Below, piece by piece: positions 4,035 to 32,678 of a DNA stretch of 64,000 nt (position 1 is the stretch's first letter; each line of letters starts with the position of its first letter). The position numbers were made by a program, and so were the translations under genes. Below the pieces are notes generated by a model that worked only from the letters and a program-made list of their open reading frames with translations, was not told the origin of the DNA and searched no databases. This stretch comes from Rivularia sp. MS3 (GTDB lineage: Bacteria > Cyanobacteriota > Cyanobacteriia > Cyanobacteriales > Nostocaceae), in assembly GCA_019192545.1 (NCBI GenBank), contig JAHCMI010000021.1, positions 1 to 64,000 on the forward strand. Reading direction: 5' to 3'.

Positions 4035-5303
4035 TTACAAAGCAACGCCGGTTAGTTTTTTCTGCGATTCTCCTACAACTTGATAAAGCTTCGTCTGAAA
4101 TTTTTCCATACAGGCGGACCAATCAAATTCTAAAATTGAAGGACGAGCATTGGCACTCATTTGCTCTTTTAATTGCGGATTTCCAAGAATTGTAATGATT
4201 TTTTCGGCGAAATCTGCGGGATTGTTGGGTTCTGCTAAAAAACCGTTGCTACCAGGCGTAACTTGCTCTGCTGTAGAAGGCGCGATCGCAGCAATTACGG
4301 GGGTACCGGAAGCCAAAGCTTCGTTGTTCGTGGTGCAGAAGTTTTCGGTGATTGAAGGGTTAACAAATAAATCCGCACGAGCAAACCATCCTAAAAGTTC
4401 TTCCCCATGAGATTCACCCCAAACTGTTACACCGGAACCAAATTGCTCGGCGCGCTGCTTGATTTCTGCTTCAATGGGGCCGCTACCAACAATTACTAAG
4501 TGAACGTCTTTTATTTTGTCGGCAACTATCGGATATATATCCAAAAGTTGATTGACATTTTTTTCTGCTGTAATACGTCCTACAAATAATAAAGTTGGTC
4601 TATTATCGTTAGGAATCGGATTAAAAGTAATGTTTTGGGGATGGAATTTTTTACAGTCAACGCCTTGGTAAGGAAAATATTCACTACGCTGACATTTCAT
4701 TGCTTGATATTTAGCAAGTTGTTCTTTTGAAGAAAATAAACTTAGGTCATATGACTCGCTGAATTGCTTGATTAGCTTGGGAAGAAACGGACGAATTAAG
4801 CTGAATAATTGATTACCCAAGTAATATTGAATATAGGCAACTATATCAGTATGAAATAAAGATATCACTGGAGTACCCGTCTTTTTCGCGTATTCAACTG
4901 CAACAGGACGACCATAACCTTGCAAAAACAGCGAATATAATCCCCTCATTTGTGCAGCTTCTTCTACTAATACAATATCGGGATTAAAATCTGCTAATAA
5001 TTTCGTATCGTTCCAATGCCGATAGCTTAATGGTTGGGGAAGAGATTTGTAAAATATTAATGGTTTTGTGGGAAATGCATAGGAGGTAAAGTTGGGATAT
5101 TGGTGTAATTCATCTAATCCCGCCATCGGACGTTTACCAACACTGCTGGGATACTGATTGTTGATTTGGGGATGAATCAGAAATACTTCATGTCCCTGTT
5201 GCAAAAACCATCTTACTCGTTGATGTACTGCAACAGAAACCCCAGTTAAAAATGGAGCGTATAATCCTGTAGCGATTGCAAGGCGGAGGGGTTGCTTTAA
5301 CAT
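4035..5303 (-). CDS. family 4 glycosyltransferase
   Basis: This 422-residue GT-B enzyme of family GT4 would transfer a sugar from a nucleotide sugar to a lipid or glycan acceptor at the cytoplasmic membrane face. The N-terminal domain shows 'GLYAPFLTGVSVAVHQRVRW' with the glycine-rich acceptor loop. The C-terminal domain shows 'LLFVGRITAEKNV', 'LVIVGSGP', and the E-x7-E donor motif 'ENFCTTNNE' (about residues 318-326), then 'ASGTPVIA'. It is downstream of a GT2 gene on the same strand (44-base gap) and close to devBC and hgl genes, so attaching the head sugar of a glycolipid is a fair guess. A truncated copy of its N-terminal domain lies at 6903-7244. The start is supported by homology to that copy. 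Confidence 0.88.
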   Translation of the reverse strand: MLKQPLRLAIATGLYAPFLTGVSVAVHQRVRWFLQQGHEVFLIHPQINNQYPSSVGKRPMAGLDELHQYPNFTSYAFPTKPLIFYKSLPQPLSYRHWNDTKLLADFNPDIVLVEEAAQMRGLYSLFLQGYGRPVAVEYAKKTGTPVISLFHTDIVAYIQYYLGNQLFSLIRPFLPKLIKQFSESYDLSLFSSKEQLAKYQAMKCQRSEYFPYQGVDCKKFHPQNITFNPIPNDNRPTLLFVGRITAEKNVNQLLDIYPIVADKIKDVHLVIVGSGPIEAEIKQRAEQFGSGVTVWGESHGEELLGWFARADLFVNPSITENFCTTNNEALASGTPVIAAIAPSTAEQVTPGSNGFLAEPNNPADFAEKIITILGNPQLKEQMSANARPSILEFDWSACMEKFQTKLYQVVGESQKKLTGVAL

Positions 5304-5346
5304 GATTTAATAGAATTGAAGAGAGGCTACCTAGTTTTTTCTCGTT

Positions 5347-6603
5347 CTAAAGAGAAACTCTATCGTCAACTGGTTGATTGTCTGATTGATAAGGTTGATA
5401 TTGGGTTAACTGAATATTAAACGGCTTTTGTATACGGTAGATAATGTTACGCCAAGATATTTTTGATATCCACATTGATGATAGTAAAGCAAATCCATAA
5501 AACCAATGTGTTAAAGGAATTCCTATTAAGATTTTCATTAATGTTGCTAATGATATATTTGGCATTAACCACCGATAGTTGATTACCTTTCTTACTGCTG
5601 TTTCGGCGAGAATTATTATTAGCAATAAGGCGAATATATACAGACTGTAGCAAGTCAATAAAAGTCCGGAAATGTCCCAATTCCCTAAAAAACAATTTAG
5701 CAACATTAACGCAAATATTACCCCTGGTAACAAAATTGAAAATATCGCTTCCACTACTACCAACCACCATTGGGGATGATACAGCCTCGAAATCAATAGT
5801 TGACGTTTTATCCAGTTACTTAAGCTTGGTAAAGTGGATTCTTCGCGATTCAGAATCAATAAAGAAGGCACGAATTTTACTTGTAAATCATGCTCGGCAA
5901 GGATAGCTTTCAACATAGTATCTTCGCTTAAAGCTCTTGCCCATTTTTCAAGTATTCGAGTTTCGCGAATCACTTGGGTTTTAATCGCTAAAGTACCTCC
6001 CCAGCAGATACCGTATAAATACATCTGTATAACTGCCGATATATTCCATATGTATCTGATTAAAGTCCCTAAATACCTGCCTTTAGATAGATACCAGCGA
6101 TTACCTGTAGTTGCTCCAATTTTCGGGTGCATTAAAGGCGACACTAATTCCCGCAACCAAGTAGGATGAACTACTGCATCCGCGTCTACTAAAGAAACTA
6201 CTTTATAGGAGCTATCTAACTCAGAGACAGCCTGTATTAAAGAACTGCATTTTAAGCTACAAACAGTACTAGCTATTTTTAAGGGGCTAATTTCGACATT
6301 TGTAGCATTTGATTCAGCAACAGTATTGTTAGCTACTTGCCATGCTGGATCTTCCTGACTATCAACTATGATTTTTAATTCATATTGCGGATAGTCTTGC
6401 TCTAGTAAAGCTCTTATACAGTTGGGGAGAAAAGGATCTGCCCCTCGCAAGCATAGAATTACTGCTGTTTTCGGAAGTTGGCTATCAGATAGGGAATTAG
6501 CTTTATTTTTATAAAGATAAAAGACAAAGATAAGCGTTAAACCTATCTGGATAAACAGCCAACCGAGTAAAGTTTGCAGCAGTGCGATCGCCCAAAATTT
6601 CAT
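5347..6603 (-). CDS. membrane-bound family 2 glycosyltransferase
   Basis: This 418-residue processive-type or ceramide-glucosyltransferase-like GT2 enzyme has an N-terminal transmembrane helix (about 7-29), a GT-A catalytic domain and several hydrophobic helices in the last 140 residues. Catalytic signatures are 'DADAVVHP' (DxD at about residue 140), 'GGTLAIK', 'SEDTM' (the ED of the acceptor site, about residue 228) and 'QLLISR' in the position of the QxxRW motif. The last is not canonical. It likely uses a UDP-sugar and a lipid acceptor at the membrane. It lies between the GT4 gene (44 bases downstream) and the truncated GT4 copy. With the nearby lipid polyketide genes, a role in glycolipid or glycan synthesis is inferred. 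Confidence 0.85.
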   Translation of the reverse strand: MKFWAIALLQTLLGWLFIQIGLTLIFVFYLYKNKANSLSDSQLPKTAVILCLRGADPFLPNCIRALLEQDYPQYELKIIVDSQEDPAWQVANNTVAESNATNVEISPLKIASTVCSLKCSSLIQAVSELDSSYKVVSLVDADAVVHPTWLRELVSPLMHPKIGATTGNRWYLSKGRYLGTLIRYIWNISAVIQMYLYGICWGGTLAIKTQVIRETRILEKWARALSEDTMLKAILAEHDLQVKFVPSLLILNREESTLPSLSNWIKRQLLISRLYHPQWWLVVVEAIFSILLPGVIFALMLLNCFLGNWDISGLLLTCYSLYIFALLLIIILAETAVRKVINYRWLMPNISLATLMKILIGIPLTHWFYGFALLSSMWISKISWRNIIYRIQKPFNIQLTQYQPYQSDNQPVDDRVSL

Positions 6604-6800
6604 TATTAGAAACCTTTACATAATTAGGAAAAACCGTAAGGTTTTAGATTTTAAAGACACTGCCTATTTCTCCGGTTTTTTACTGGATAATTCGGCTTTA
6701 TCAAGGATTTATTTGAGAGGGATAATTAAATTTTGCAGAATTTAAGAGGCTAAAAAACACATACAAACAATCAAAAATCTAAAATTCACCGTTCCTATTG

Positions 6801-6900
6801 TGGCAATATAGCGGTTTTTGGTTGAATAGAATACATTCTTATCTGCCTAATTTCTTCCACTTTTTTGTATTGCACCCAAGTGAAATTTGCTATATTTGCA
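6801..6900. mobile_element. 100-bp MITE-like palindromic element
   Basis: The ends are imperfect terminal inverted repeats (tggcaatatagc and gctatatttgca, 10 of 12 matching), and the inner halves also pair in part (gaataca / tgtattg). No coding capacity. A partial relative lies at about 3981-4018. The right end sits two bases from the stop codon of the truncated glycosyltransferase at 6903. Confidence 0.55.
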
Positions 6901-6902
6901 GA

Positions 6903-7244
6903 CTAAAGCAAAGATTCATCGATTGTAATTTTGTCGAAGTCAATATTCTGCAATAAGTGATTGCCTTCTGTATAAGCAGGAGGTAAATACTTGTAAAACT
7001 TTAGTTTTTTAATTTCCGAAATATCTTTTAAGAAAGGTGAAGTATGGGATTCATCCAGCTTAAAAATTAAATTTTTGCTGATATCGTCAAAAGACTGGTT
7101 TTTAAATTGACGATGGACAACAATAATTTTTTTACTTTCTTGAGATGTTTGTCGCGTTAAACGATGAATAGTGACAGAAATTCCTGTAAATACTGGAACA
7201 TATAGCCCCATAAAAATCGCCATACTTAAAGCTTGTTTGTCCAT
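6903..7244 (-). pseudogene. truncated GT4 glycosyltransferase (N-terminal domain only)
   Basis: The 113 residues align by eye with the first ~115 residues of the GT4 enzyme at 4035-5303. Shared blocks are 'GLYVPVFTGISVTIH' against 'GLYAPFLTGVSVAVH', then the 'LDE', 'FYK.LP' and final 'ID.V.VEE'-like positions. The C-terminal donor-binding domain is missing, so it cannot be an active glycosyltransferase. The stop codon is next to the MITE-like element at 6801-6900. This suggests that deletion or insertion linked to the element removed the 3' part. It starts with ATG only 14 bases after the DUF2141 stop, so it may still be transcribed. A functional role for the stub is possible but unsupported. 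Confidence 0.75.
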
Positions 7245-7258
7245 AATTCAGGTATAAT

Positions 7259-7726
7259 TTAAGGGTCTAAAGAATATTTCATTACAATCTCAATAGTTTG
7301 ATTTTTTGTTAATGAAAAACTTGCTTTTTCAAACTTAGGAGTCCCTGTTTTTATCGATACGATGGGGTTATTAGAAATACCAAATCCTTCTTCAGGGATA
7401 CCGAGAAAATCTCGATCTAGTTTATGGTTATTATTTTGGTCATCAATTACCGCAATAGCGTAAGTTCCTTTTTTTAATCCCGTAAATTTTTGTTTAACCG
7501 AATTCCCGGTAATTTTGATACATTGGCTTTTAAACTTACTGCTATTACCTAAAGGAAATCCACGCTCGTTTTCATAAAGTCTCAAGCAAACTTGACCTTT
7601 TTGATTTTTGATACCTTTAATTGCAACAGTTAAATTTGCCGATTCTTCTGCCCCCTTAGCTTTGACACCGAATCCGAAGCCGAAGAAAGCAGAAAGCAAC
7701 AAGCAACAAACTAGATTTTTGTTCAT
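7259..7726 (-). CDS. secreted DUF2141 protein
   Basis: This 155-residue exported protein has an N-terminal signal peptide (about residues 1-25, 'CCLLLSAFFGFGFGVKAKG'). The mature part is a beta-sandwich of the DUF2141 family. The family's signature is clear: 'GQVCLRLYENERGFP', 'GTYAIAVIDDQNNNHKLDRD' and 'LGIPEEGFGISNN'. The aspartate-rich D-x-N-x-N-x-K-x-D stretch resembles a calcium-binding loop. No enzymatic function is established. It is placed between an epimerase and a glycosyltransferase remnant, so a periplasmic or outer-layer role near the glycolipid or glycan pathway is only a suggestion. Confidence 0.85.
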   Translation of the reverse strand: MNKNLVCCLLLSAFFGFGFGVKAKGAEESANLTVAIKGIKNQKGQVCLRLYENERGFPLGNSSKFKSQCIKITGNSVKQKFTGLKKGTYAIAVIDDQNNNHKLDRDFLGIPEEGFGISNNPIVSIKTGTPKFEKASFSLTKNQTIEIVMKYSLDP

Positions 7727-7747
7727 GTGATTAATTGTTGACAGTTA

Positions 7748-7850
7748 CCAGTTATAAGTAGGAAGTAGAAAGTAGCAAGTAGCAAGTAGCCAGTAGGAAG
7801 TAGGAAGTAGGAAGTAGGAAGTAGCGAGTTAGAAACTACCAATTACCAAT
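7748..7850. repeat. heptameric tandem repeats (STRR)
   Basis: About a dozen units of the agtagga/agtagca type are followed by accaatt units. The block fills the space between the DUF2141 gene and the epimerase stop codon. Confidence 0.85.
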
Positions 7851-7856
7851 TACCAA

Positions 7857-8843
7857 TTATTTTTTCTGATTTTTCAGCCATTCTTTGATACGAGCCATTC
7901 CTTCATCCAAGGAAATAGCTGGTTGATAGCCTAATATTCTGCGTGCTTTTTCAATTGAAAAAGTATAGGGACGACTCATGAAATCCACAGCTTCGGGATA
8001 TATATCCGGCTTTTTACGTATAAGTTTTTGTCCTTGACAGCGCAATTTCAAAAACATTCTGATTTCTTCTTTCGGTAGGGAAGAAGGGGTTAGACAATCC
8101 CCAACTTCTGCTAAACGGGTAAAAAATTCTCGCGGGGAAGTTTCTTTACCATCGGTGATGTTGAATATTTCGCCGTGTTGTTCTTTTTCTATTGCGAGAA
8201 AAATCGCATCAATTAAATTATCAACGTACAGATGATTGATTACCTTTCCTTCGTTGGTATAAGCAAATAATTTTTGCTGCATAAACGAGATCGGCCTCAC
8301 AGTCCAAGGAATAGAACCCGGTCCGTAAACATCTCCGGCACGGATAATAATAATACCGAAATCTCGGGCACTATTTAGTTGCACTAAAGCTTTTTCTGCT
8401 TCTATTTTCGTTTGACAATAAGGATTTCTTTCTTTTACAAGAGTTTCTTTTTCAGTAACATTATTAGGATAATCAAAACCATAAACAGAAGCAGTAGAAA
8501 GATGCACAAAATTCTTTACACCGGCATTTCTAGCAGCTTTACCAATATTTATAGTTCCATCAATATTTACTGAACTAAATTCTTTGATCGAACCTCCTTC
8601 TTTTGCAACTTCTTCAGTATGTAAAACTATATCTACATCCTGACAAGCCTGTTGAGTTATAGATGCATCTGTTACACTACCGTTAATGATTTCAATGCCT
8701 AATTTCTGTGCATTCCGAGCTAATTCTGCATCTTTTTCCAGTCCACGGACTTTTAAACCTTTAGCTATAGCTATTTCGGCTGCACGTAGTCCTATAAATC
8801 CACCAATTCCTGATATCAGTAAAGTTTTATCTGCAAAGTTCAT
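7857..8843 (-). CDS. NAD(P)-dependent epimerase/dehydratase (extended SDR)
   Basis: This 328-residue Rossmann-fold enzyme of the extended short-chain dehydrogenase family acts on nucleotide sugars or on steroid/lipid-type 3-hydroxy or 3-oxo groups. It shows the nucleotide-binding motif 'GIGGFIG' near residue 12, 'HLSTASVYGF' with the catalytic Ser/Thr, and 'YCQTKIEAEK' carrying Tyr and Lys. 'VYGPGS' and 'HLYVDNLIDAIFLA' follow. I chose the ATG at 8843, which puts the Rossmann strand at the N-terminus. A start at 8912 would add 23 hydrophobic residues from a repeat-rich region. It lies between devC and DUF2141, all minus strand. It may shape the sugar or the lipid chain; the substrate cannot be read from sequence. 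Confidence 0.8.
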   Translation of the reverse strand: MNFADKTLLISGIGGFIGLRAAEIAIAKGLKVRGLEKDAELARNAQKLGIEIINGSVTDASITQQACQDVDIVLHTEEVAKEGGSIKEFSSVNIDGTINIGKAARNAGVKNFVHLSTASVYGFDYPNNVTEKETLVKERNPYCQTKIEAEKALVQLNSARDFGIIIIRAGDVYGPGSIPWTVRPISFMQQKLFAYTNEGKVINHLYVDNLIDAIFLAIEKEQHGEIFNITDGKETSPREFFTRLAEVGDCLTPSSLPKEEIRMFLKLRCQGQKLIRKKPDIYPEAVDFMSRPYTFSIEKARRILGYQPAISLDEGMARIKEWLKNQKK

Positions 8844-8903
8844 ATTTTTGTTGCTTATACGCTTGTTTGATATATAAGAAAATAGAGAAGTAAGAAAATA
8901 GGT

Positions 8904-9003
8904 AATTTGCAATTTGCAATTTGCAATTATTAATTTTTTACTTGCTACTTGCTACTCGCTACTCGCTACTTGCTACTCGCTACTTGCTACTTGCTACTTG
9001 CTC
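8904..9003. repeat. heptameric tandem repeats (STRR)
   Basis: Three aatttgc units are followed by about nine cttgcta/ctcgcta units. They extend to the stop codon of devC, so the TAA of that gene is part of the repeat context. Confidence 0.85.
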
Positions 9004-9007
9004 GCTG

Positions 9008-10186
9008 TTAAAAAATATCTGCCGGATCCGCCGAACGCAGTTGATTAATGGTTAATGCACCAGATGTCATACACATTAAAGCTGTTGCGATTAACACTAT
9101 TAATGCATTGTTGAAACTCATATTTATAGGTAGTTTCGTTGCTTTCATTGCGAATTCATATAAATAATTTGAGATAATCCAACCTGGAATATAACCAAGT
9201 ACTGCTAAAATGAAAGCCTGTTTGAAAACTACTCTTAATAAATAATTATTGGCATAACCTATGGCTTTTAAAGTGGCGTATGCTACTAACTGACTGGCAA
9301 TATTGCTAAATAAAATTTGATAAACAATAACTATACCAACAACAGAACCCATTGTAAGCATCAGATTTAAAATAAAACCGATTGGTGTTCTATTTGCCCA
9401 ATATTCTTTTTCAAAATTAACGAATTCTTCGTAGGTAAATATAAGAACATCTTCAGGTAAATTATTCCGTAATTCTTGAGTAATTTTTTGAGGATTTACT
9501 CCTTCTTTGAGGGTTATTGCTCCTACATCTATTTTATCTGTAGGTCTGCCGTTCTGAAATATTCGCAAAAATGTAGTATCGCTAACAATTAAATTACCAT
9601 CTACCCCAAAGGAAGGGCCTAAACTAAATAATCCACCGACTCTAAGTCTTAATCCTGCTAGTGAATCAAACGGAAAAATTTCAATGCTTGGTTGGGTGTT
9701 TCCCCGCTCAAATCTCAAAGCGACATCTCCAAATTCCGGTCGAGAATTTTTATCAAATAAAACTACGTTAGATATTTTAAGCTTATCTATATTTTCCTGA
9801 ATTCCAGGTAAATTAATTACGGGTTTGCTAGGTTCAAATCCCATTACGTATATAGAGTATTTTTCGCCAGTATCGGGATTTTTAAATTTTGCAAATCCCA
9901 AATATATCGGAGTAACTGATTCTACACCTTTAAATCCTAAAACTTGGTACAAACGAGTTCGAGAAAAACTTTGGGTAGCAGTTAAAGCTTTATATTGAGA
10001 ACTAACTAAAAATAAATCTCCTTGTAAACTGCGGTGTACCTGAGTTGCGCTACTGTAAAGAGCATCTTGAAATCCAAGTTGCATAAACATAAGTATCACA
10101 ATAAAAGCGATACCAGCTACAGCTACTAAAGAACGAAATTTGTTTCGGATTAGCTGTAACCATGCTAAAGGGGTTTTTGAAGCCAT
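9008..10186 (-). CDS. devC: DevC-type ABC exporter permease
   Basis: This 392-residue permease of the FtsX/MacB-like DevC family has the expected topology. One transmembrane helix is at about residues 18-38, a large periplasmic domain follows, and three helices lie near 270-300, 320-345 and 360-382. The end 'LRSADPADIF' and the start 'PLAWLQLIRNKFRS' are typical of DevC. In Anabaena, DevBCA with a TolC-type outer membrane channel exports heterocyst glycolipid. Here devC is 179 bases downstream of devB, and I find no devA (ATPase) in the window. The permease therefore needs an ATPase from elsewhere. Proximity to the hgl polyketide genes fits a glycolipid exporter. The assignment to DevC rather than another FtsX permease is strong. 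Confidence 0.9.
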   Translation of the reverse strand: MASKTPLAWLQLIRNKFRSLVAVAGIAFIVILMFMQLGFQDALYSSATQVHRSLQGDLFLVSSQYKALTATQSFSRTRLYQVLGFKGVESVTPIYLGFAKFKNPDTGEKYSIYVMGFEPSKPVINLPGIQENIDKLKISNVVLFDKNSRPEFGDVALRFERGNTQPSIEIFPFDSLAGLRLRVGGLFSLGPSFGVDGNLIVSDTTFLRIFQNGRPTDKIDVGAITLKEGVNPQKITQELRNNLPEDVLIFTYEEFVNFEKEYWANRTPIGFILNLMLTMGSVVGIVIVYQILFSNIASQLVAYATLKAIGYANNYLLRVVFKQAFILAVLGYIPGWIISNYLYEFAMKATKLPINMSFNNALIVLIATALMCMTSGALTINQLRSADPADIF

Positions 10187-10365
10187 GATTGCTAAGTATT
10201 TAAATCGGGATGAATGAGATATATAGCGCGGGAAGGATGAAGGATGAAGGTGGTTTCCAATCGCGAGATTCCACTGGTTCGATTACTATCTACTCGGAGG
10301 CAGTATCCCAATTATTCATTACCAAATATCAATTGTTCAATTCATCCTTCTAGTTTCATTTTTGC

Positions 10366-11562
10366 TTAAATTTGAATGGCGACATCTACCTGTAGATTTG
10401 TTAAACCCATGATTAATCTATTATCTTCTAGTTCATCGATACGAATTTTGACCTCGACAATTCTTCTGTCAGTATCTGCTCCTGGATTTATATTCAGTAT
10501 TTTTTGTCTATCGACTAGCAATCCGATTTCGCTGACGGTTCCTTTTATTTCCCGAGGTAAGGCGGTACTGGTAATTGTTGCTTTTTGACCTAGACGTACT
10601 TTCTGGATGTCTGTTTGATAAACTTCTGCTACCACATACATCTGATTGGTTTTACCTATTTCTACTAATCCCTCTGAGGTAATCATTTCTCCGGGTTTGG
10701 CATTCACTTTTAATATTGTGCCGGTAATGGGAGATTTGAGAATCGTTAATTCTTGTTCTGCTTTAGCTTGCTCTACAGCAGATTTAGCACTTTTAACCTC
10801 AGCCTGGGCTAGTTGAATATCTTGGGGACGAACTTCTTGGATACTATTTAATTTCGCTTTGGCTTCTCTGATTTGATCCTGTAAAGTATTGACGCTACGA
10901 TCTAGATTTGCTTGAGCTTCATTGAGTTGCTGCTGTAAAGTTTTTACCTGCAAACTCTTACTATCTGCAATGGAAGCGGAAACTGCTCCCTGCTGGTATA
11001 ACTTTTGATAGCGATTGTATTCGGTTTGAGCATTACTTAATTCTGCTTGTAACCTGGCGATTGTGGCATTACCTGTAGCAACTTCTCCTTGAAACTGAGA
11101 CTGTAACCGAGCAATTATTGCTCGTTGAGCATCAATATCGCCTGTTTTAGCTCCAGCTTCTATCTGAGCTAATTTAGCTTGAGCAACTCTAACTCGATCC
11201 AAAGCTTGCTGTATTTTAACTGTAGCCCCAGTGTAACCATCAAGTAGCGCTATTACTTGCCCAGCTTTTACTTTGCTTCCTTGACTGACAAATAATTTTT
11301 CTACCCGCGAACCGTTAATCGAATTAGGAGGTGATAATTTAATTACCATTCCTTCGGGTTCAATACGCCCTAAAGCTGTAATCGCGACTCTGGCAGGAGA
11401 AGTATTTACAGGTGTAGGTGATTTACTTTGAATGTTAGGACGAAATCGTAAGTAGCTGTAGAAACTAATAATTGCTGTAGCTAAAGCAATGGAAGTTGCT
11501 AAAATCAATCGCCACTTAGGGGGGGCTTTTTCAAGAAACTCCCTTTCCTTATCTGCTGACAT
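10366..11562 (-). CDS. devB: DevB-type membrane fusion protein
   Basis: This is a periplasmic adaptor of the HlyD family, 398 residues. It has an N-terminal anchor (about residues 18-40), a lipoyl-like half motif 'GSKVKAGQVIALLDG' (about 95-110) and a long coiled coil (about 120-260, full of Ala, Gln, Leu and Lys). The second lipoyl half is 'ILKSPITGTILKVNAKPGEMI', followed by a beta-barrel and membrane-proximal domain. DevB links the DevC/DevA pump to the outer-membrane channel. I prefer the ATG at 11562. The in-frame TTG at 11589 would add nine residues and has no better binding site. It heads the devB-devC pair, opposite to the ParB-like gene, with a 1.3-kb non-coding region upstream that may hold its control region. 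Confidence 0.9.
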   Translation of the reverse strand: MSADKEREFLEKAPPKWRLILATSIALATAIISFYSYLRFRPNIQSKSPTPVNTSPARVAITALGRIEPEGMVIKLSPPNSINGSRVEKLFVSQGSKVKAGQVIALLDGYTGATVKIQQALDRVRVAQAKLAQIEAGAKTGDIDAQRAIIARLQSQFQGEVATGNATIARLQAELSNAQTEYNRYQKLYQQGAVSASIADSKSLQVKTLQQQLNEAQANLDRSVNTLQDQIREAKAKLNSIQEVRPQDIQLAQAEVKSAKSAVEQAKAEQELTILKSPITGTILKVNAKPGEMITSEGLVEIGKTNQMYVVAEVYQTDIQKVRLGQKATITSTALPREIKGTVSEIGLLVDRQKILNINPGADTDRRIVEVKIRIDELEDNRLIMGLTNLQVDVAIQI

Positions 11563-12891
11563 ATTTTGATTCCAATTGTGAAGAGCCAAGTTTCTTATAA
11601 CGTTGATGAAGGTAACTTTTACTTAAGAAAGCCGATTTACTCTGCCTGAAAACCGTTCTTAAATATAAAGACGGGTTTACGCAAACACAGCAGATAGTTA
11701 TGTGCTGAAAATTTTTTAAATTGTATGTAGTTCATCTTGCACCATTTTCATTGATTCTAGAGATAAAGTCCCCAATACGCTTTCCCAAATTAAAAGCCGG
11801 AAAATCAGCAGCCTGCGGCTGTTTTTGAGAATGGTGCAAAAAATGAAATTTATATAACTTTCGCTATTAAACGGGGATTTGTAAAGACAGCGGTTGCGAG
11901 ACAATAAACTGACGAGGATTATGTTTTGGATTCGGGTATTAACTCCTGGAAAAATGTGTAAATAAACATCGCTTTAACTGCGTACATAGGTAATTAAAAA
12001 TGTGTATGGAATCTGAAACAACAGAGTTACAAGTATTAATTTTGACCTTTAATTTTAAATCAAAAATATTTAACCGATTATTAATATCCTGTAGGAAAAA
12101 ATAATGGCTTACTGGCGTTTCGATTTCCTAGTTTTTATTCTATATTATTAATAAGGTATTGTTCTAGGAAATAGCAGTAACGCTCTTCACAAAAACTAAA
12201 TTTTTATTCCAGCTATTATCAGTGGGAAGCGTTCAGGCAATAGCTCAAAAAACTTGTCTCTAAGTATGTCAAATAAGTTGAATATTGTCAACCTGCTTTT
12301 AGGAAGAGTTTTTCGCTGACATACACATATATCTGAATGCAAATAGTAGGCTATGAAATAATCGAAATATAGATGTAGCGCTTCATCTTTTGTGTGGTAA
12401 GAAAATTTGAATGCAGACGCGAAAAGTCTTTTATAGCATTATATACCCTTGGATATCGGCTGGAATTCTACATTAGTAATAGCGACGGATAATCGCAAAA
12501 TTAAATAACGATAGATATTTTTTTAACCGCATTTCGGTGGCAATTACTACATTCTATAAATTTTATGATTTAAGTTTGTTTGCCTAGGGAGCAAATTGCT
12601 GTTAGTTAACGTCCCTAACCTTCAAATAGAGGAATAACGAACTTGAAAAATTTAATTTATGAAGATTATTTTTAGCTATGATATTTTTGCTATCAAGTAG
12701 ATTGATTTAAGGCAATATAGGAGGAATAATTGCATAACCTTGGGCTTTAGCTTTCATCTTGATTATTGTAGAGATTAGTTTGATATCAAGCTATTATCAT
12801 TTTTATGACATAACATTACTTAGCGGCATTTTCAAGCCATACAAAAGTCAATCAAATATCAGTCGGTATATGGTTATCAATATTAGTAATT
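11563..12891. other. 1.3-kb divergent intergenic region
   Basis: No convincing gene on either strand; the only longer frame (11716-11904, minus) has no recognisable features. It separates devB from the ParB-like gene and must hold both promoters. I looked for the NtcA pattern GTA-N8-TAC expected for devB and found none; the closest is a GTA-N5-TAC at about 11611. It is AT-rich without tandem repeats, in contrast with most other gaps here. Confidence 0.5.
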
Positions 12892-14301: not shown

Positions 14302-15218
14302 AAATAGATAATTGGGGATTGGTAATTGGTAATTGGTAATTGGGCATTGGGCATCGGTAACTTGTTACTTATAACTGCTTACTGTTAACTGTTCACTGTT
14401 AACTGCTCACTGCTCACTGTTAACTGTTAACTGTTCACTGAAATGCTCGAAGCGAACTATATGATAATTTCTATTAGTTCCAATAAACCTTGCTTAAATA
14501 TCCGCAAGTATATCGATTAGCGATTATTTATTTTGAGCAATTAGGAAATCTTAAAATAACCAACAGTAACTATTTTTGTGAATGTAAATTGATATATTTA
14601 GTGTTGATATATTAACTTGATTTTTAACCATCGACTATTACTGATGCTTTTTTTGATTATCATGTTCCCTTGAACTAATATCATCTAAAAACAAACTGTT
14701 TTAAATCAAATATTGAAACTACCGATATTGCTTTACAACAACCTTACAGCTACTTCATAATCAAGAAAAACTTATGTTTTCTAGGGTTTTTGTCAAAATA
14801 CCCTTAGAAACGTCAGGTTATTGATGATACTATGGGTCAATATTTTTTATCTAATTAACAGTTGAAAAAATCTAGAATTCTTTCTGAATTGCCCAAAAGC
14901 GTATCATCCGCTTTGTTTAAGCTGTGCTACTGTTGGTATTAATTCTAATAATTAAGAACAAATTGGTAATTAGATATTTAATGATTAGTTTATTAGTAAT
15001 GAATAACTAACAATTGAAATCAGTCTAATTACGATATTTGTGATAGTTGAAACTGTTTGTCAATTATTTTGATAAATACAAACAGAAAATAGGTGTGTAG
15101 GAGTAAATGATTTATTATATGTTTTTCAAAGTTTTTGATGTTGTGGTTTTGTAACTAACTTGTCAAACATTATTGTTTACAGTTCATAAAATTATCTTCC
15201 AAGGCGTTTTAATTAGCT
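14302..15218. other. intergenic region with heptamer repeats, then featureless AT-rich DNA
   Basis: Positions 14311-14445 are STRR units (ggtaatt, then gttaact/gttcact/gctcact). The remaining ~770 bases show no gene and no convincing terminator. It probably contains the promoter of the small gene at 15219. Confidence 0.6.
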
Positions 15219-15749: not shown

Positions 15750-15774
15750 GAATTTTATAGTCGCTACAGTTTTG

Positions 15775-21671: not shown

Positions 21672-22211
21672 ATGTCTGGAAATCAAAAAGCTAATTATAT
21701 TGGTCGTGTTGTTGACGGTAGCAAACAAGCACCTATCAGAGCAGCAAAGGTCTTATTCGATAATAATGATGGTAATTCCGTGGTTTCTTACAGCGATATT
21801 GAAGGAATATATCGATTTTCTGCTAATCCCAATCATAACGGAGTTCTTCAAGGACAAATAACCGTAGAAGCAAACGGTTATCAAACTTACAAATCTAATA
21901 TTAGTTCACCAGCAGGCAACAAAGACCTCGGTGATATTACACTGCTTCAAGGTAGCGGTAGTAAAACTCGCATACAAGAAGTCAAACAAACATCTAGTAC
22001 ATCTAGCACGCCCAGTCAACCTAATAATCACAGTAATACGAATAGTAGCGATACCGACAAGTTAATTCCGATATTGATTGCGTTGATGGTAACTTTTTTC
22101 ACTTTTACTACATTCGCTATCGTATCTGCTATCAAAAAAGAACGTTTCAACGATAGACGCGATAATTTTATTAATTTTCATGAACTACCGATTTATCAGG
22201 TTAAAGGTTAG
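21672..22211 (+). CDS. CarboxypepD_reg-like domain protein with C-terminal membrane anchor
   Basis: This 179-residue protein begins without a signal peptide and carries a beta-sandwich of the carboxypeptidase-regulatory/transthyretin-like type (about 8-95: '[19 protein letters not shown]', '[12 protein letters not shown]', '[13 protein letters not shown]'). A Ser/Thr/Asn-rich linker follows (about 100-135), then one transmembrane helix (about 137-160) and a short basic tail. It is most likely held in the membrane by the C-terminal helix with the sandwich domain in the cytoplasm, though the reverse topology cannot be excluded. It lies inside the hgl gene series, exactly between the two halves of the ketoreductase. 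A scaffold that ties the synthase to the membrane is an inference. The stop is in an STRR. Confidence 0.7.
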
Positions 22212-24521: not shown

Positions 24522-27500
24522 ATGGAAAAAATCGCGATAATTGGGTTTTCATGTCTATTCCCGGATGCTAAGAATGCTGAAGAATTTTGGCATAATTTAA
24601 TCGAGCAAAAAGATTCAACTTCTGAACTGAGTATTGATGAAATTGGTATAGAACCTACTATATTTTACGATCCAGTCAAAGGAAAGCCAGATAAAGTTTA
24701 TTCCCTACAAGGGGGATTTGTACGTAATTTTAAGTTTGATGCATCGGGATATAACCTTCCCTCTTCACTGCTACAAAATCTAGATGACACCTTTAAATGG
24801 TCGCTTTATGCTGCGAAGCAAGCATTACAAAATAGTGGTTATTTGGAAGACAAGTCTGTTCTTTCCAAATGTGGAGTACTGTTGGGCACACTCTCGCTAC
24901 CTACGAAATCATCAAATCAATTATTTGAACCGCTCTATCAACAGGTGTTAAATCCTGCAATTAAAGAGCTTTTGCAGCAAGAAGATTTTACTGCCGCTAG
25001 TTTACCGGCTGCCGAAGAGACTTCTTTTTATAACGCGATGATATCGGGTTTACCTGCCGCTATCATTTCTCAAGCTTTATCTTTATCTCATATCCATTTT
25101 TGTCTGGATGCTGCTTGTTCTTCACCTTTATATGCTGCAAGATTAGCCTCTCACTATCTATGGAGTCATAAAGCTGACTTGATGTTAGCTGGTGGTATTA
25201 GCTGTGCCGATCCTATATTTATTAGGATGCTGTTTTCCGGTATTCAAGGCTACCCTGAAAATAATGATATTAGTCGCCCTCTAGATAAATCTTCACGGGG
25301 ATTAATTACCTCTGAAGGCGTAGGAATGCTTGTTCTCAAACGGTATAGCGATGCTGTTAGAGACGGCGATCGCATTTATGCTTCGATAACGGGGAACGGA
25401 CTTTCCAATGATGGCAGGGGTAAACATTTACTCAGCCCGAATCCGAAAGGACAAACTTTAGCTTTTGAAAAAGCTTATTTAGAAGCTGATATCAACCCCA
25501 AAGCTATTGACTATATTGAATGTCATGCCACCGGAACTTTGTTAGGAGACAGTACTGAATTTAACTCTGTAGAAACATTCTTTGGTAAATATCAAGCAAC
25601 TCCATTTACAGGTTCGGTAAAATCTAATATCGGGCATTTACTTACCGGTGCTGCTAGCGCTAGTGTAATTAAAGTACTCTTGAGTATGAGCAAGGGTATT
25701 ATTCCTACAACTATTAATATTACAGACCCCATCGGTTCGGAAGATAACGTAATTTCACCGAATAGAATTGTCACAAGTCCTACTAATTGGCATTCAAAAA
25801 GCGGTTCGATAAAACGCGCTGGAGTTAGTGCTTTTGGCTTGGGTGGAACCAACGCCCATCTAATTCTAGAACAAAACAAAAACATCATATCTGAACAAGC
25901 AAGCCAGCCTTTGAAACCGGCTAAAATGGCGATTGTCGGCATGGATGTATTATTCGGGAATTGTGATGGCTTAGATGCTTTTGAAAGAAGTATTTATCAA
26001 GGTAAACAACATTTTATTCCCCTACCTTCTCAGAGATGGCATGGTGTAGAAAATCAAACAGAGCTACTAAAGAAATACAAATTACCAGATTTAAAACCAC
26101 CTAACGGAGCTTATATCAGCGAATTTGAAATTGATACCGTATCTAGTAAAATTCCTCCCAATGAGTTAGATAATCTTAACAAGCAACAACTATTGATGCT
26201 CAAAGTTGCAGAACGGGCTTTAAAAGATGCAGGAGTAAAAGAAGGCGATAAAGTCGCGGTTTTAATCGCCACAGAAGCCGAATTTTCCGTTCATCAACTA
26301 CAGCAAAGATGGAATTTATCTTGGGAAATAAAAGAAGGATTAAATGCTAGCGCAATATCCCTATCATCTGATAAAGTTAATAAGTTAGAAACAATAGTTA
26401 AAGATGGGATTCATCCCGAACCTGCCGATAGTAGCGAATTCGTTAGCTACATTACTAATATTATGGCGAGTCGCATTTCCTCACTGTGGAATTTTACTGC
26501 TCCCGTCTTAACTATTTCCGCTGGCGAAAACTCCACATTTAAAGTTTTAGAAGTAGCGCAACATTTATTAACTACTGGGGAAGCAAATGCCGTATTAGTG
26601 GGTGCAGTGGATTTAGCTGGCGGCATGGAAAATGTGTTATTAAGAAATGAATTATCCACAGTTAATACAGGTGTAAATACTCTATCCTACGACCAGAAAG
26701 CTAATGGCTGGATGGTTGGTGAAGGTGCAGGTGCAGTAGTTTTAAAGCGACATCAAGTTGCAAAACAGGAAAACGAGTGCATTTACGCGGTAATCGATGC
26801 AGTTAGTTTCACGCAAAAAAATGCTTCCAAAAGTGATTTGCAAAGTCGCTTGGGAAATGCAGACGCTAACGCCGTTAGTTCTGCCTGTCAAAAAGCTTTT
26901 GAGACAGCAGAAATTAAACCTTCAGATATATCTTATTTGGAAGTTTTTGGTAGCGGTATTTCTCAAGAAGATGAAGCAGAAATTGACGGATTACTTCGGG
27001 CTTATCCCAGCGGTGCAAACGAATTAACCTGCGCCATTGGCAGCGTTAAAGCTAATATTGGTCACACCTATGTTGCATCGGGAATTGCAAGTTTAATTAA
27101 AACTGCTTTGTGTCTTTATTATAGATATCTTCCTGCAACACCAAAATGGAATGGTGTTAAAGATATTAACAAGTGGGAAAACAGTTCTTTCTATGTTGTT
27201 CCGGAATCGAGGGCTTGGTTTCTCAATCCCAACACTGATAAAAGAACGGCAGCCATTAATAGCATGGGTATAGATGGTACTTACGCTCATTTAATAATAT
27301 CTGAAGAACCAGATAAACAAGACCGCAGCAGCAGATTTTTACAGCAAATGCCTTTACATTTGTTTCCTATAGCTGGAAACAACCGCGAAAATTTACTACA
27401 GCAAGTTGACAACTTGCAAAATTTAGTAAATAGCGGAACGTCTCTTCCCGCAGCTGCTAGCATGACTTTTGCTAATTATCAAAAATGCAGTCAAAACGAT

Positions 27501-29321
27501 AATCAAAGTTATACTTTAGTAATTTTGGCTCGCAATCACAAAGAATTAGCGAAAGAAACAGAGGCAGCTATCAAAGGTGTAAATAACGCATTTGAGAATG
27601 GTGAAACATGGCAAACACCACTAGGTAGTTATTTTACAGCTAAACCTTTGGGTAAAAAAGGCGAAGTTGCATTTATCTATCCTGCTGCGGTTAATTCCTA
27701 TCTGGGTATTGGTAGAAATCTCTTCCGTTTATTTCCCGAAGTTCACGATGATATCATCCTGCAAAATTTAGATAATCGCGTCAGTCATGTTGAGAAGCTA
27801 GTATATCCCCGCAGCTTAAACAAACTATCAAGCAGACAGTTAGAAAAGCTAGAAAAGCAACTACTAGATGACTCGGCGGCGATGTTTGAAAACGAAATAG
27901 TCGTTGCTCGACTACTGACAAAAGTGCTTGAGGATAACTTTCAAGTCAAACCAAAGTTTGCTTTTGGTTACAGCTTGGGTGAAGTTAGTATGATGTCTGC
28001 TATCGGGATATGGAATCAATTCGGCGAGATGAGCAACGCTTTAAACTCCAGTACCTTATTTGGAGACAGGTTATCCGGTGCCAAAAACTGCGTCAGAGAA
28101 TTTTGGCAGCTACCACCTGTAGAGCGATCGCCAGATAGCAACTTTTGGTGTAATTACGTGCTTATAGCCACACCCAGCCAAGTTAGAGAAAGTATAGCAG
28201 ATGAAAATCGCGTTTACTTGACTCAAATTAATACACCCGAAGAAGTCGTAATTGCCGGTGAACCTTCAGCTTGTGAAAGAGTCATCAAAAAATTAGGTTG
28301 TAATGCCTTTCGGGCACCTTTCGATCATGTAATTCATTGCGAAGCAATGGCTTCGGAACACCAAGAGATTGCCAATGTTAACACTTTACCAGTCCAAGAC
28401 AATCGGCAAAATCTAATACTTTATTCTGCCGCAAAATATGCGCCAATAGAATTAGAAAGTAAAGCCATTGCTGAAGGTATCGCTACAGGGCTTTGCAAAG
28501 AACTTGATTTTCCTAAACTGGTGAACCGAGTTTATGATGAGGGTGCAAAAATATTTATAGAAACCGGTGCTGGAAACGTTTGTTCTCGATGGATTGACAA
28601 AAATTTAAGCGATAAAGAACACATGACAATTTCTCTTAATCGTAGAGGTTTAGACGACCATGGTAGCATTCTCAAAGCATTAGCAAAACTAGCTAGCAAT
28701 CAAGTACCTGTAGATTTATCGCCGCTATATTCTACTACCGAAGAAATTAATAAAAAATCTGCCATCAGCATCAGAAAAGTTAAATTAGGCGGTCATAATA
28801 TTACCGAAAGTATTTTGAGCGCCCAGAACAAAAAACTTTTACAAAATAAATCAGAAGTGATTGCTGCTCCTATCGAGCAAAAGCAACCGGCAACCAAAAT
28901 AAACACAACAGCTAAATCGACTAAAAAAGCCGAAGTATCAGCAAATATAACACAAAAAATCAAGGCAGTTCATCAACCACAACCTAAACCAAATACTCCT
29001 ACACCATCACCGAAAAAGTCAGAAGCAAGTCCCATGAAACAAATCGCCTTATCGAATATAGAAAATAAAATCGAGCAACCAAAAACTCCGGCGAAAACAA
29101 CTTCCAACCTTGCGTCTTCTGACACAAACAAATTAGCTTCAACTTTCAAGTTAACCAGCTATACAAAACCTCAATATCATCAGTTGAGTGCAAATAATTC
29201 AATGGTTCATAAGACCCATTCTATCTTCTTAAACTCTCGTCAAGATTTTAGCCAACAACTCAGCGAAATAATTCAGTTACAAATAGCTTGCGCCGAAGAA
29301 TTGTCTGGTAAAGATTACTAA
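24522..29321 (+). CDS. hglC: HglC-type synthase (KS-chain length factor-AT)
   Basis: The protein has 1599 residues. Residues 1-445 are a full ketosynthase with active Cys199 in 'LDAACSSP' and His motifs in 'ECHATGT' and 'SNIGH'. Residues 465-940 are a second KS fold in which the Cys position reads 'ISAGENST' (Glu669). This is a chain-length-factor subunit that cannot condense by itself. Residues 1040-1400 are an acyltransferase with 'GYSLGE' (Ser about 1151) and 'APFDHVIHC'. The last 170 residues are a basic Pro/Thr/Lys-rich linker and a short helix. The layout corresponds to PfaC/PfaB parts of PUFA synthases and to HglC of heterocystous cyanobacteria. The KS-CLF pair probably sets the chain length on ACPs of hglE. 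Confidence 0.87.
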   Translation: MEKIAIIGFSCLFPDAKNAEEFWHNLIEQKDSTSELSIDEIGIEPTIFYDPVKGKPDKVYSLQGGFVRNFKFDASGYNLPSSLLQNLDDTFKWSLYAAKQALQNSGYLEDKSVLSKCGVLLGTLSLPTKSSNQLFEPLYQQVLNPAIKELLQQEDFTAASLPAAEETSFYNAMISGLPAAIISQALSLSHIHFCLDAACSSPLYAARLASHYLWSHKADLMLAGGISCADPIFIRMLFSGIQGYPENNDISRPLDKSSRGLITSEGVGMLVLKRYSDAVRDGDRIYASITGNGLSNDGRGKHLLSPNPKGQTLAFEKAYLEADINPKAIDYIECHATGTLLGDSTEFNSVETFFGKYQATPFTGSVKSNIGHLLTGAASASVIKVLLSMSKGIIPTTINITDPIGSEDNVISPNRIVTSPTNWHSKSGSIKRAGVSAFGLGGTNAHLILEQNKNIISEQASQPLKPAKMAIVGMDVLFGNCDGLDAFERSIYQGKQHFIPLPSQRWHGVENQTELLKKYKLPDLKPPNGAYISEFEIDTVSSKIPPNELDNLNKQQLLMLKVAERALKDAGVKEGDKVAVLIATEAEFSVHQLQQRWNLSWEIKEGLNASAISLSSDKVNKLETIVKDGIHPEPADSSEFVSYITNIMASRISSLWNFTAPVLTISAGENSTFKVLEVAQHLLTTGEANAVLVGAVDLAGGMENVLLRNELSTVNTGVNTLSYDQKANGWMVGEGAGAVVLKRHQVAKQENECIYAVIDAVSFTQKNASKSDLQSRLGNADANAVSSACQKAFETAEIKPSDISYLEVFGSGISQEDEAEIDGLLRAYPSGANELTCAIGSVKANIGHTYVASGIASLIKTALCLYYRYLPATPKWNGVKDINKWENSSFYVVPESRAWFLNPNTDKRTAAINSMGIDGTYAHLIISEEPDKQDRSSRFLQQMPLHLFPIAGNNRENLLQQVDNLQNLVNSGTSLPAAASMTFANYQKCSQNDNQSYTLVILARNHKELAKETEAAIKGVNNAFENGETWQTPLGSYFTAKPLGKKGEVAFIYPAAVNSYLGIGRNLFRLFPEVHDDIILQNLDNRVSHVEKLVYPRSLNKLSSRQLEKLEKQLLDDSAAMFENEIVVARLLTKVLEDNFQVKPKFAFGYSLGEVSMMSAIGIWNQFGEMSNALNSSTLFGDRLSGAKNCVREFWQLPPVERSPDSNFWCNYVLIATPSQVRESIADENRVYLTQINTPEEVVIAGEPSACERVIKKLGCNAFRAPFDHVIHCEAMASEHQEIANVNTLPVQDNRQNLILYSAAKYAPIELESKAIAEGIATGLCKELDFPKLVNRVYDEGAKIFIETGAGNVCSRWIDKNLSDKEHMTISLNRRGLDDHGSILKALAKLASNQVPVDLSPLYSTTEEINKKSAISIRKVKLGGHNITESILSAQNKKLLQNKSEVIAAPIEQKQPATKINTTAKSTKKAEVSANITQKIKAVHQPQPKPNTPTPSPKKSEASPMKQIALSNIENKIEQPKTPAKTTSNLASSDTNKLASTFKLTSYTKPQYHQLSANNSMVHKTHSIFLNSRQDFSQQLSEIIQLQIACAEELSGKDY

Positions 29322-29455: not shown

Positions 29456-31105
29456 GTGCTAAACAAACAAGACAACGGACTTGTATATTATGGGGTTTCT
29501 GCAACGAAAAATCGAACTTGGAAAGGTTCGGTAAGCTGTATTTCTTTTGACCCCGAAGGAATAAAGCAACAATTGCTAGAAACCGATAAACCTTGTTATA
29601 TTGTTAAAGTTGGTGACAGAATTGGGGCAACAAATTACGGCTATTGTCCTCTTGATAACAGTCAACCAGCAGAAATAGAATTACTAATTGCAGCGCCACC
29701 TGTTTTTACACAAAGCTTCGGCGATTCTAATTTTCTTTCTTTTCATAATTTAAAGTACGCTTACACAACTGGCGCAATGGCTGGGGGTATAGCCTCCGAA
29801 GAAATGGTAATTGCGTTGGGTAAAGAGAATATTTTAAGCTCTTTTGGTGCGGGTGGTTTGAGTTTAACTCGTTTGGAAGCAGCGATAAAAGTTATTCAAG
29901 CATCGTTGCCAAATGGCCCTTACGCATTCAATTTAATTCACAGTCCTAACGAGCCAGAAATTGAAAGAGGTGCTGTAGATTTATACATAAAATATGGAGT
30001 AGAAACTATAGAAGCTTCGGCATTTTTGGATTTAACTCCTAATATTGTTTACTATCGTGCGGCTGGATTAAGTTTAAACTCAGCTAACCAAATTCAAATT
30101 AATCATAAAGTCATTGCAAAAATTTCTCGTCGAGAAGTTGCGAGTAAATTTATGCAGCCAGCACCTTTAAAAATGCTCAAGGAACTGGTTGAAAAAGGAT
30201 TAATTACCGAATTACAAGCAACTCTAGCAGCACAAATTCCGATTGCAGATGATATTACCGTAGAAGCCGATTCTGGCGGTCATACAGATAACCGTCCTTT
30301 GGTTTGCGTGCTACCTTCTATACTTGCTTTAAAAGACGAAATTCAGTCAAAATATAATTATGAAAAACCCATCCGAGTTGGAGTAGCAGGAGGAATTTCA
30401 ACTCCTCAATCGGCTTTAGCAGCTTTTATGATGGGTGCTGCATATGTAGTTACCGGTTCAATCAATCAATCTTGTATAGAAGCGGGAACTTCCATACATA
30501 CGAAAAAACTATTAGCACAAGCTGATATGGCCGATGTAATGATGGCACCGGCTGCTGATATGTTTGAGATGGGAGTAAAACTACAGGTTCTCAAACGCGG
30601 AACTATGTTTCCCCTCAAAGCCCAAAAACTATACGAAATCTACCGTAATTATAATTCTCTCGACGAACTGCCACCAGCCGAAAAAACAAGATTAGAAAAA
30701 CAAGTTTTTCGCAAAAGTATCGAAGAAGTTTGGCAAGAAACAGTTGCTTATCAATCCAAAAGTAATCCTCATAAATTAACTAAAGCTGCTAACAATCCAA
30801 AATACAAAATGGCACTGATTTTCCGCTGGTATTTAGGGTTATCTTCCAGGTGGTCTAATTCCGGTGAAAAAGGAAGAGAAGTGGATTATCAAGTCTGGTG
30901 CGGTCCAGCAATGGGTAGCTTTAATGATTGGGTACGCGGCTCTTATTTATCAGAACCAAAAAATCGTCAAGTAGTTGATGTTGCCAACCAAATTATGTTG
31001 GGAGCTTCTTATTTATATCGCATCCAAAATTTAAAAATGCAAGGTCTACAAATTAATAATTACTATTCCCAGTATCATCCGATTCAATTAACATCGGCAA
31101 TCTAA
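29456..31105 (+). CDS. PfaD-type FMN-dependent enoyl reductase
   Basis: This 549-residue TIM-barrel flavoprotein of the PfaD/nitronate-monooxygenase-like family reduces the enoyl intermediate in trans during lipid chain growth. Conserved segments are '[13 protein letters not shown]', '[13 protein letters not shown]', '[13 protein letters not shown]' and '[20 protein letters not shown]' for FMN phosphate binding. It ends with the '[18 protein letters not shown]' block typical of PfaD. The frame opens with GTG at 29456, which gives the usual N-terminal 'W.GS...I.FD..GI' strand. No better ATG lies nearby, and the binding site is weak. It follows hglC by 134 bases and precedes hglB by 64. I believe the Anabaena hgl region has an equivalent at the same place but am not certain of its symbol. 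Confidence 0.85.
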
Positions 31106-31169
31106 AATCTACAAATCTCTTCAAAACAAACACGAGCCACACAATCGTAAATTTAAAATCTTAAATCAA

Positions 31170-32678
31170 ATGACTACAAAACAATCTATGAGCGCGGCAG
31201 AAATTCAAAACTGGTTATTATCTAACTTGGCTGAAATACTCAACATGGAAGCCACAGAAATCGACGTAACTCAACCTTTAGATAGCTACGGTTTAGATTC
31301 AACTCAGGCAATGGTAATTGTCACCAAAGCCCAGAAAATGCTCGGATTTGAATTGTCTCCGATGTTGCTTTGGCATTACCCGACAATAGAAGCGCTTTCG
31401 GCTCGTTTAGCAGAAGAAGCAGAAGAATCTCAACAGGAAAAATCCCTCGTCGATACCAGCAATACTCCCAACTTAGCAGCAGAAGCCATTCTTGACGAAA
31501 CTATCCGCCCAGCTTCAAATTCTTACAAATTTAATCCCAATCCTCAAAATATTTTCTTAACCGGAGGTACCGGTTTTTTAGGAGCATTTTTAATCTACGA
31601 ACTCTTACAGCAGACAGATGCAGATATTTACTGCTTAGTACGGGCAGCAGATGCAGAAGCAGGCAAACAAAAGCTAAAAAATAATTTACAAACTTATGCA
31701 ATTTGGAACGAAGAATTTAGCCCTCGAATTATTCCTATAGTTGGTGACTTATCTCAACCGCAATTAGGCATCAGCACGGAAGGCTTTGATATGCTGGCAA
31801 CTAATATAGATGCTATTTATCACAGTGCTGCAATGCTCAACTATGTATTTCCTTACTCAGCATTGAAAACAGCCAACGTATTGGGAACCCAAGAAATCAT
31901 CCGCTTAGCTTGCAAAATCAAAGTTAAACCTTTACATTACGTCTCCAGCGTCGCCGTCTTTGAATCACCCGAATATGCAGGAAAAGTAGTCAAAGAAGAT
32001 GATAATTTTGACAGTTGGGAAGGAATATTCTTAGGTTATTCTCAAACTAAATGGGTAGCAGAAAAACTTGTCAAAATCGCTTCGCAAAGAGGACTGCCCA
32101 CCACCATTTACAGACCACCTTTAATTTCCGGACACAGCCAAACTGGTGTTGGAAACACTGACGATTTTGTAAACTTAATGACCAAAGGCTGTCTGCAAAT
32201 GGGATGTTTTCCCGACGTAGACTATAAGCTCGATATGTCACCTGTAGACTATGTAAGTCAAGCTATAGTTTATCTATCCAGTCAAGAAGAATCTCTTGGT
32301 AAAGCTTTTCATCTGCAACATCCAGAACCCGCACCTCTAAGCACCTTAGTTGACTGGTTGAGTTCTTTTGGTTTTCCCATCAAGATGATTCCTTATGAAG
32401 AATGGCAAGACAAGTTAATCAACGATGTCACATCAGAGGAAAATCCTTTATATACTCTCCGTCCGTTTCTACTGGAACGTTGGTCAGAAAGACAACTGAC
32501 AATTCCCGACTTATACTTAACAGAAAACAGACCAATTATTAGCTGTGACAAAACATTAAACGCACTTGCAGGAAGCGGAGTCTCTTGTCATCCAATTGAT
32601 GCACAATTATACACTACCTATGCAACTTACTTGATTCAAAATGGTTTTCTTAATCTTGAATCAGTTCTGAGTAGTTAG
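31170..32678 (+). CDS. hglB: HglB/HetM-type ACP-thioester reductase
   Basis: This 502-residue fusion has an ACP (about 8-90) with attachment Ser44 in 'GLDSTQAM' and a long-chain thioester reductase (about 120-500) of the extended SDR type. Motifs are 'LTGGTGFLG' for NAD(P)H, 'YVSSVAVFE' and 'YSQTK' (Tyr about 290, Lys about 294), then 'YRPPLISG'. The enzyme would release the finished chain from the carrier as aldehyde or alcohol, the reductive step needed for heterocyst-glycolipid aglycones. Length agrees with HetM of Anabaena (about 500 residues). It is the last gene of the hgl series and is followed by a palindrome at 32688-32741. The hetN and hetI genes that follow in Anabaena are absent here. 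Confidence 0.9.

Follow-up and report, generated by a model that had tools for sequence, protein, structure and literature searches.

The canonical hgl island of Rivularia sp. MS3, the absence of an adjacent exporter ATPase gene and a second hgl-type island in the genome

The DNA stretch analysed here (64,000 nucleotides from Rivularia sp. MS3, hereafter the window) is located on contig C88 of a genome of 9.19 Mb in 174 contigs. Positions 4035 to 32678, both of which are exact boundaries in the list of open reading frames (ORFs) of the window, harbour a gene cluster which with a probability of about 95 % represents the canonical heterocyst glycolipid (hgl) island, a type already described, as found in the Rivularia/marine Calothrix group. 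While the island as such is known, its comparison with sister islands bears in a testable way on a question left open in the literature, i.e. which ATPase drives HgdB/HgdC: sampled sister islands carry devA next to devBC, whereas canonical islands do not. This contrast between island types and a second island on contig C116 of the same genome are the results worth keeping. Sampled genomes are referred to by G numbers, contigs by C numbers.

Identity of the island

Canonical hgl islands are defined in PMC11804610 by at least 7 clustered homologues of the 19 Anabaena island genes; of 479 genomes surveyed there from the heterocytous clade, 367 bear islands with at least 10 of these genes, and composition and position are largely conserved. 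In the window, nine clustered ORFs correspond by domain and by their order in named Nostocales to hglT, hgdA, hgdC, hgdB, hglE, KR-DH, KS-KS-AT, PfaD and hglB (Table 1). The HglE tree, from which G210_b was omitted owing to a stop, places the window protein inside the single clade formed by the 24 canonical rows (100/100), and the DevC tree places HgdC inside that formed by the 22 canonical rows (100/99). An hgl-like island, described in the same source (PMC11804610) as a compact set of seven homologues (hgdCB, hglEAFGCA) devoid of hglT, hglD and hglB, does not match the window, which contains hglT, the first KS and a full hglB. The genome possesses one hetR and carries nifH in three pieces, as in many heterocyst formers.

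Each gene named in the initial annotation, which had been made from the sequence alone, was found at its given place in agreement with the family searches, and the gathering of synthase, head-group and export functions at one place is borne out by gene content and order. Its observation thus stands and its interpretation is partly supported: the arrangement is not unusual, the layout being that of the published hgl island and shared by named Nostocales and same-family genomes. The ParB-domain protein (12892-14301), the DUF2141 protein and the small ORFs 6903-7244, 15219-15497 and 21672-22211 had not been mentioned.

The island resembles those of other heterocystous cyanobacteria, among them Anabaena sp. 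PCC 7120 (Fan et al. 2005, cited in PMC6161253; PMC11804610), in possessing hglT, in the divergent orientation of hgdA-hgdC-hgdB and hglE...hglB at one place, and in the lack of an ATPase gene. The Anabaena cluster (all5343-all5359) is described in PMC6161253 and PMC6692557 as including hgdB, hgdC and hgdA without an ATPase gene, as expressed in heterocysts and as required for the glycolipid layer; HgdA acts as a UDP-galactose 4-epimerase and appears at a late stage of heterocyst formation (PMC6692557). In contrast to PCC 7120, the window island contains a ParB-methyltransferase-like gene and ORF 21672-22211. Moreover, KS-KS-AT is encoded by a single ORF, whereas hglD and hglC are separate genes in PCC 7120.

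Four points weigh against the assignment. The match to PCC 7120 gene numbers is based on position and literature rather than on sequence comparison. The genes hetN and hetI, which follow hglB in PCC 7120, do not adjoin the island and do not occur among the genes downstream of hglB in this contig, the rest of the genome not having been searched for them. No exact GTA-N8-TAC (NtcA-type) site is present in 11590-15771, although a putative site has been reported upstream of hgdB in Anabaena. Finally, G343, a genome of the same genus rated 100 % complete and bearing the same canonical island, yielded no hetR match. Across the window the GTA-N8-TAC motif occurs 20 times versus 11.6 expected, a number reached by none of 100 shuffles; since none of these sites lies between hgdB and hglE, no regulatory claim is derived from promoter sites.

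Gene content, order, conservation and clade membership are direct observations, and the working of the island can be outlined from the biochemistry, mutant phenotypes and expression reported for Anabaena; for the present strain we infer the same functions together with a borrowed ATPase. A PfaA/PfaB/PfaD-like synthase would build a long hydroxylated chain, which HglB would free reductively and to which HglT would attach a sugar, with HgdA supplying or balancing the UDP-sugar epimer. HgdB/HgdC would then contribute to depositing the glycolipid in the heterocyst envelope, in concert with an outer-membrane protein of the TolC type and an ATPase encoded elsewhere, and the resulting coat would shield nitrogenase from oxygen.

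Conservation of gene order in relatives

Named genomes were scanned with HglT, and the best 80 of 161 relatives were considered; eight loci with no more than 8 kb before hglT were dropped, and the 72 in which the sequence extends by more than 8 kb from hglT towards hgdB were counted. The genes for hgdA, hgdC, hgdB, DUF2141 and the family-2 glycosyltransferase (GT2) are nearly always present in these loci (Table 1). Same-family genomes, which were retrieved by searching with HgdA or HglE, repeatedly show hglT-GT2-DUF2141-hgdA-hgdC-hgdB in divergent orientation to hglE-KRDH-KSKSAT-pfaD-hglB. Some deviate from this order, for instance by carrying a second GT2 gene or, in the case of G220, by lacking an hgdC and a GT2 match. 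As the named and same-family locus sets overlap, they are not independent. The glycosyltransferase/dev unit was not found conserved apart from hgl in the loci examined, a sample that leans that way because loci were found via hglT or hgdA.

HglT homologues at E<=1e-130 are present in 68 of 71 same-family genomes versus 1 of the 317 remaining genomes of the order sample. Among the matches listed, the best named ones (84-89 %) belong to an uncultured Calothrix metagenome-assembled genome (MAG), Calothrix parasitica NIES-267, Rivularia sp. T60_A2020_040, two Richelia-labelled MAGs and Plectonema cf. radiosum LEGE 06105. The nearest sampled genome, G330, shares 92-97 % identity for most island proteins and 81 % and 89 % for two small ones. 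That the genes came together only recently, or locally in the present strain, is hardly credible: nothing was found in its favour, and it is contradicted by the same order in sampled same-family genomes and named Nostocales. A search of 72,556 plasmid records with hgdA returned one match (Gloeothece verrucosa, 52 %), and region 4035-11589 matched seven records, in DevB/DevC-like pieces only.

HgdB/HgdC and the missing ATPase

The permease and membrane fusion protein of the window had initially been named DevB/DevC. They are members of the DevB and DevC families, as in the DevBCA-HgdD glycolipid exporter, but represent HgdB/HgdC, known from the Anabaena island, and not the DevB/DevC of devBCA. 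No ATPase gene is present in the island, and hgdA lies beside hgdC where sister islands have devA. The statement in the initial annotation that devBCA of Anabaena lies away from hgl does not conflict with this identity. A genome-wide DevA profile search gave no match within the window and four above cut-off outside it; devA adjoins devBC on C168, C121, C93 and C116. Six DevC proteins score above cut-off, four of which are accompanied by devB and devA, one on C151 by neither and the window HgdC by hgdB only; the genome's three other devBCA permeases fall outside the island rows in the DevC tree. The solitary DevC permease (C151:12303-13439) is followed by ORFs that appear ExbB/ExbD-like by eye.

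The contrast extends to the sampled islands, which are better-ranked matches and not a random selection. Twenty-four canonical stretches were fetched, 22 of which show hgdB-hgdC-hgdA whole; the two left out, G220 (no hgdC match) and G278 (contig ends before hgdB), are likewise canonical and without devA. None of the 22 carries devA at >=50 % identity, hgdC being followed by hgdA, and weaker matches (31-36 %) in canonical stretches are other ABC ATPases located further off. Among the hgl-like stretches of same-family genomes, 15 of 16 show devB-devC-devA, the contig of G256 ending inside devB. From other families, ten stretches were available, seven of which contain devB-devC, each with devA (G017, G085, G174, G118, G019, G398, G119); no devB-devC pair was found in the remaining three (G084 twice, G421). 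Overall, devA follows devC in all 22 non-canonical islands with a readable whole devB-devC pair, and in that of C116. The G467 stretch was fetched from inside devC, so that the position of devA lies outside it. One named locus, L311 (Centralia_MAG_434), contains a 68 % devA-like piece beyond hglT, at the contig end and on the opposite strand.

With the canonical HgdC rows forming one side of a branch in the DevC tree, a single loss of devA on the canonical branch is the simplest reading. The main text of PMC11804610 contains no occurrence of devA or ATPase; literature searches, which did not extend to subscription papers and supplements, turned up this study and one review (PMC8277102).

How HgdB/HgdC would be energized was approached via the predicted coupling loop, for which we chose residues 296-318 and whose role we assume from the MacB/FtsX family. 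Its core, ATLKA[IM]G, is kept in both HgdC and ATPase-bearing DevC, which mildly favours a borrowed ATPase over none. Columns at least 90 % identical in both groups make up 39 % of the loop versus 29 % of the whole protein, though the membrane segments TM1-TM3 are equally high (41-44 %). By majority residue, HgdC and ATPase-bearing DevC are less alike in the loop (61 %) than over the whole protein (70 %). The latter value, together with the absence of devA from the 22 canonical stretches and the position of the window DevC as the only one of six with a devB partner but no devA, speaks for HgdB/HgdC acting without any ATPase, e.g. as an envelope scaffold or passive conduit. The shared loop core and the excess of conserved columns, limited as the latter is by TM1-TM3, argue against such a role, as do the four DevA encoded elsewhere in the genome, and we regard it as rather unlikely.

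A more comprehensive scenario with a borrowed ATPase is possible, if doubtful as a whole. The heterocyst island would have arisen from an ancestor with complete devB-devC-devA and lost the ATPase gene once, hgdA then coming to lie beside hgdC; HgdBC would be a half-exporter dependent on an ATPase from another locus, perhaps DevA, and in this way the late sealing of the envelope could be coupled to earlier DevBCA export. The second island, which bears an ATPase gene along with its own HglB and two glycosyltransferases, would make a C24-type glycolipid of its own, and a ParB-methyltransferase devoid of catalytic activity would have been recruited into the canonical island as DNA-binding regulator. 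The weakness of the loop comparison and the differing placement of C116 in the DevC and HglE trees somewhat lower the probability of this joint scenario and somewhat raise that of action without an ATPase.

The second island on C116 and hgl-like islands elsewhere

The initial annotation had suggested that the product might be a glycolipid distinct from that of heterocysts, or made alongside it, and had advised a search for a second hglE. Such a synthase was indeed found on C116, where the window HglE matches in two pieces at 56 % and 54 %. Its existence, as well as the varied head groups known among heterocyst glycolipids (PMC11804610), lends some support to another product; the second synthase, however, sits outside the window, and the window copy is canonical by tree, gene order, hglT, hgdA, full hglB and first KS. 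It is therefore very improbable that the window island makes another or additional glycolipid. A non-canonical product for it, considered as a candidate, was rejected on tree (HglE and HgdC inside canonical clades), gene order and content. The other glycolipid may instead lie with the C116 island.

On C116, hglE, KR-DH, CLF-AT without the first KS, PfaD, a full-length HglB (500 amino acids), two GT2, devB, devC and devA are encoded on one strand. The beginning of an island of this type, through pfaD, is present on contig C250 of G343, up to the contig end. The HglE tree joins C116 and G343:C250 with G019 and G398 (100/99), and the G019 island shows most of the C116 gene order, devA included. 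In the DevC tree, by contrast, C116 has a long branch and groups with G174, G085 and G017 (91/92), so that the two trees disagree on its origin. No hetR match was obtained in G019 or in G398, the latter only 78 % complete; in view of this incompleteness, and of the missing hetR match in G343 despite its canonical island, this is weak evidence.

Calothrix sp. CCY 0018 is reported to possess an additional island related to that of a Pleurocapsales strain, with C24 diol-glycoside analogues in both (PMC11804610). By analogy, the C116 island is expected to make such analogues, and the two family-2 glycosyltransferases encoded there are candidate enzymes for adding the sugar to C24 analogues of heterocyst glycolipids.

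The hgl-like second islands of heterocystous cyanobacteria (PMC11804610) share with the window hglE, KR-DH, CLF-AT, PfaD and hgdB/hgdC homologues. They differ in that the first KS is absent from 16 of 16 fetched stretches, only the ACP piece of hglB is present in 15 of 16 and devA follows devC in 15 of 16, whereas the window has the first KS, a full hglB and no devA.

Further hglT genes were observed near some of these islands. In G017, which belongs to another family, nifH scored above cut-off and hetR gave no match; its hgl island contains a 63 % HglT homologue (C139:80885-82129) near a GT2 gene and full hglB. According to PMC11804610, all non-heterocytous islands lack hglT, and G119 of the same genus as G017 gave no HglT match. 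In G467 (C182), hgdA and a second copy of hglT (68 %) come after an hgl-like island, and G469 has a further hglT (C2:307632-308879) close to its hgl-like island; some hgl-like products may therefore be glycosylated.

Gene content and the ParB-domain gene

Table 1 Features of the hgl island in the window (bits with cut-off in brackets; gene counts refer to the 72 named loci)
Feature	Position	Strand	Evidence and remarks
hglT, family-4 glycosyltransferase (GT4)	4035-5303	-	Pfam Glycos_transf_1; putatively transfers sugar onto aglycone
Family-2 glycosyltransferase (GT2)	5347-6603	-	HpnI-like, below HpnI model cut-off; 70/72
Small ORF, 113 amino acids	6903-7244	-	35 % to first 116 residues of HglT
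DUF2141 protein, no assigned role	7259-7726	-	PF09912, 1.1e-38; 71/72
hgdA, NAD-dependent sugar epimerase	7857-8912	-	Pfam Epimerase, 1.9e-30; 72/72
hgdC, DevC-type permease	9008-10186	-	TIGR01185, 479 (290); canonical HgdC clade; 71/72
hgdB, DevB-type membrane fusion protein	10366-11589	-	TIGR02971, 377 (129); 71/72
ParB domain and DNA-methyltransferase-like fold	12892-14301	+	ParB_N, PF02195, 3.6e-8, above cut-off; N6_N4 methyltransferase, PF01555, 0.0023, below cut-off; Foldseek
92-amino-acid ORF ahead of hglE	15219-15497	+	kept in some relatives only
hglE, PfaA-type KS-AT-ACP synthase, 1861 amino acids	15772-21357	+	TIGR02813, 1697 (1010); canonical HglE clade
Carboxypeptidase-regulatory-like ORF	21672-22211	+	same genus, partly G256
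KR-DH subunit, PfaA C-terminal type	22603-24342	+	KR, 9.1e-35; TIGR02813 positions 1991-2568
KS-KS(CLF)-AT subunit, hglD and hglC fused (letters inferred)	24522-29321	+	two KS stretches; TIGR02816 (PfaB-type part), 163 (144)
hglA-type enoyl reductase, PfaD family (letter inferred)	29456-31105	+	TIGR02814, 662 (449)
hglB, ACP and thioester reductase	31170-32678	+	TIGR01746, 354 (213); putative reductive chain release

From its family match, hgdA is predicted to code for a UDP-galactose 4-epimerase with the activity known from Anabaena. Counterparts of ORF 6903-7244 (31-34 %) occur in four genomes of the same genus (G330, G311, G343, G355).

The product of 12892-14301 belongs to the ParB family by its domain. 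Its predicted model (mean pLDDT 71.4, pTM 0.40) matched by Foldseek the DNA methyltransferase M1.HpyAVI (2.6e-7) and ParB structures (1.3e-6). The motif (D/N/S)PP(Y/F/W), the catalytic motif of DNA N6/N4 methyltransferases, is absent from 14 of 14 rows including that of the window, leaving a match to these enzymes in fold only. The gene is present in at least 24 of the 72 named loci, many flanks ending near it, and also in the islands of G017, G085, G174 and G119. In the Anabaena island, alr5348, asr5349 and asr5350 are variable genes (PMC11804610), and the ParB gene probably occupies the putative place of alr5348. Perhaps, as a guess, its product is a DNA-binding regulator of the island.

nifH in three pieces and split hglE matches

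The three nifH matches on C109 follow each other on the minus strand (63163-63594, 162444-162665, 164544-164723), separated by gaps of ~98.8 kb and ~1.9 kb. The short gap contains an ORF of 463 amino acids without a Pfam match, the long one a serine-recombinase ORF (Resolvase, 4.2e-22) at its nifH-side end. This arrangement resembles the excision elements of heterocyst formers, for which PMC4874684 lists 19 nifH elements, one hglE element and, within nifD of Rivularia sp. PCC 7116, four elements. In G220, the hglE matches are split as well (residues 18-194 and 182-1860, ~22 kb apart), which may reflect another hglE element.

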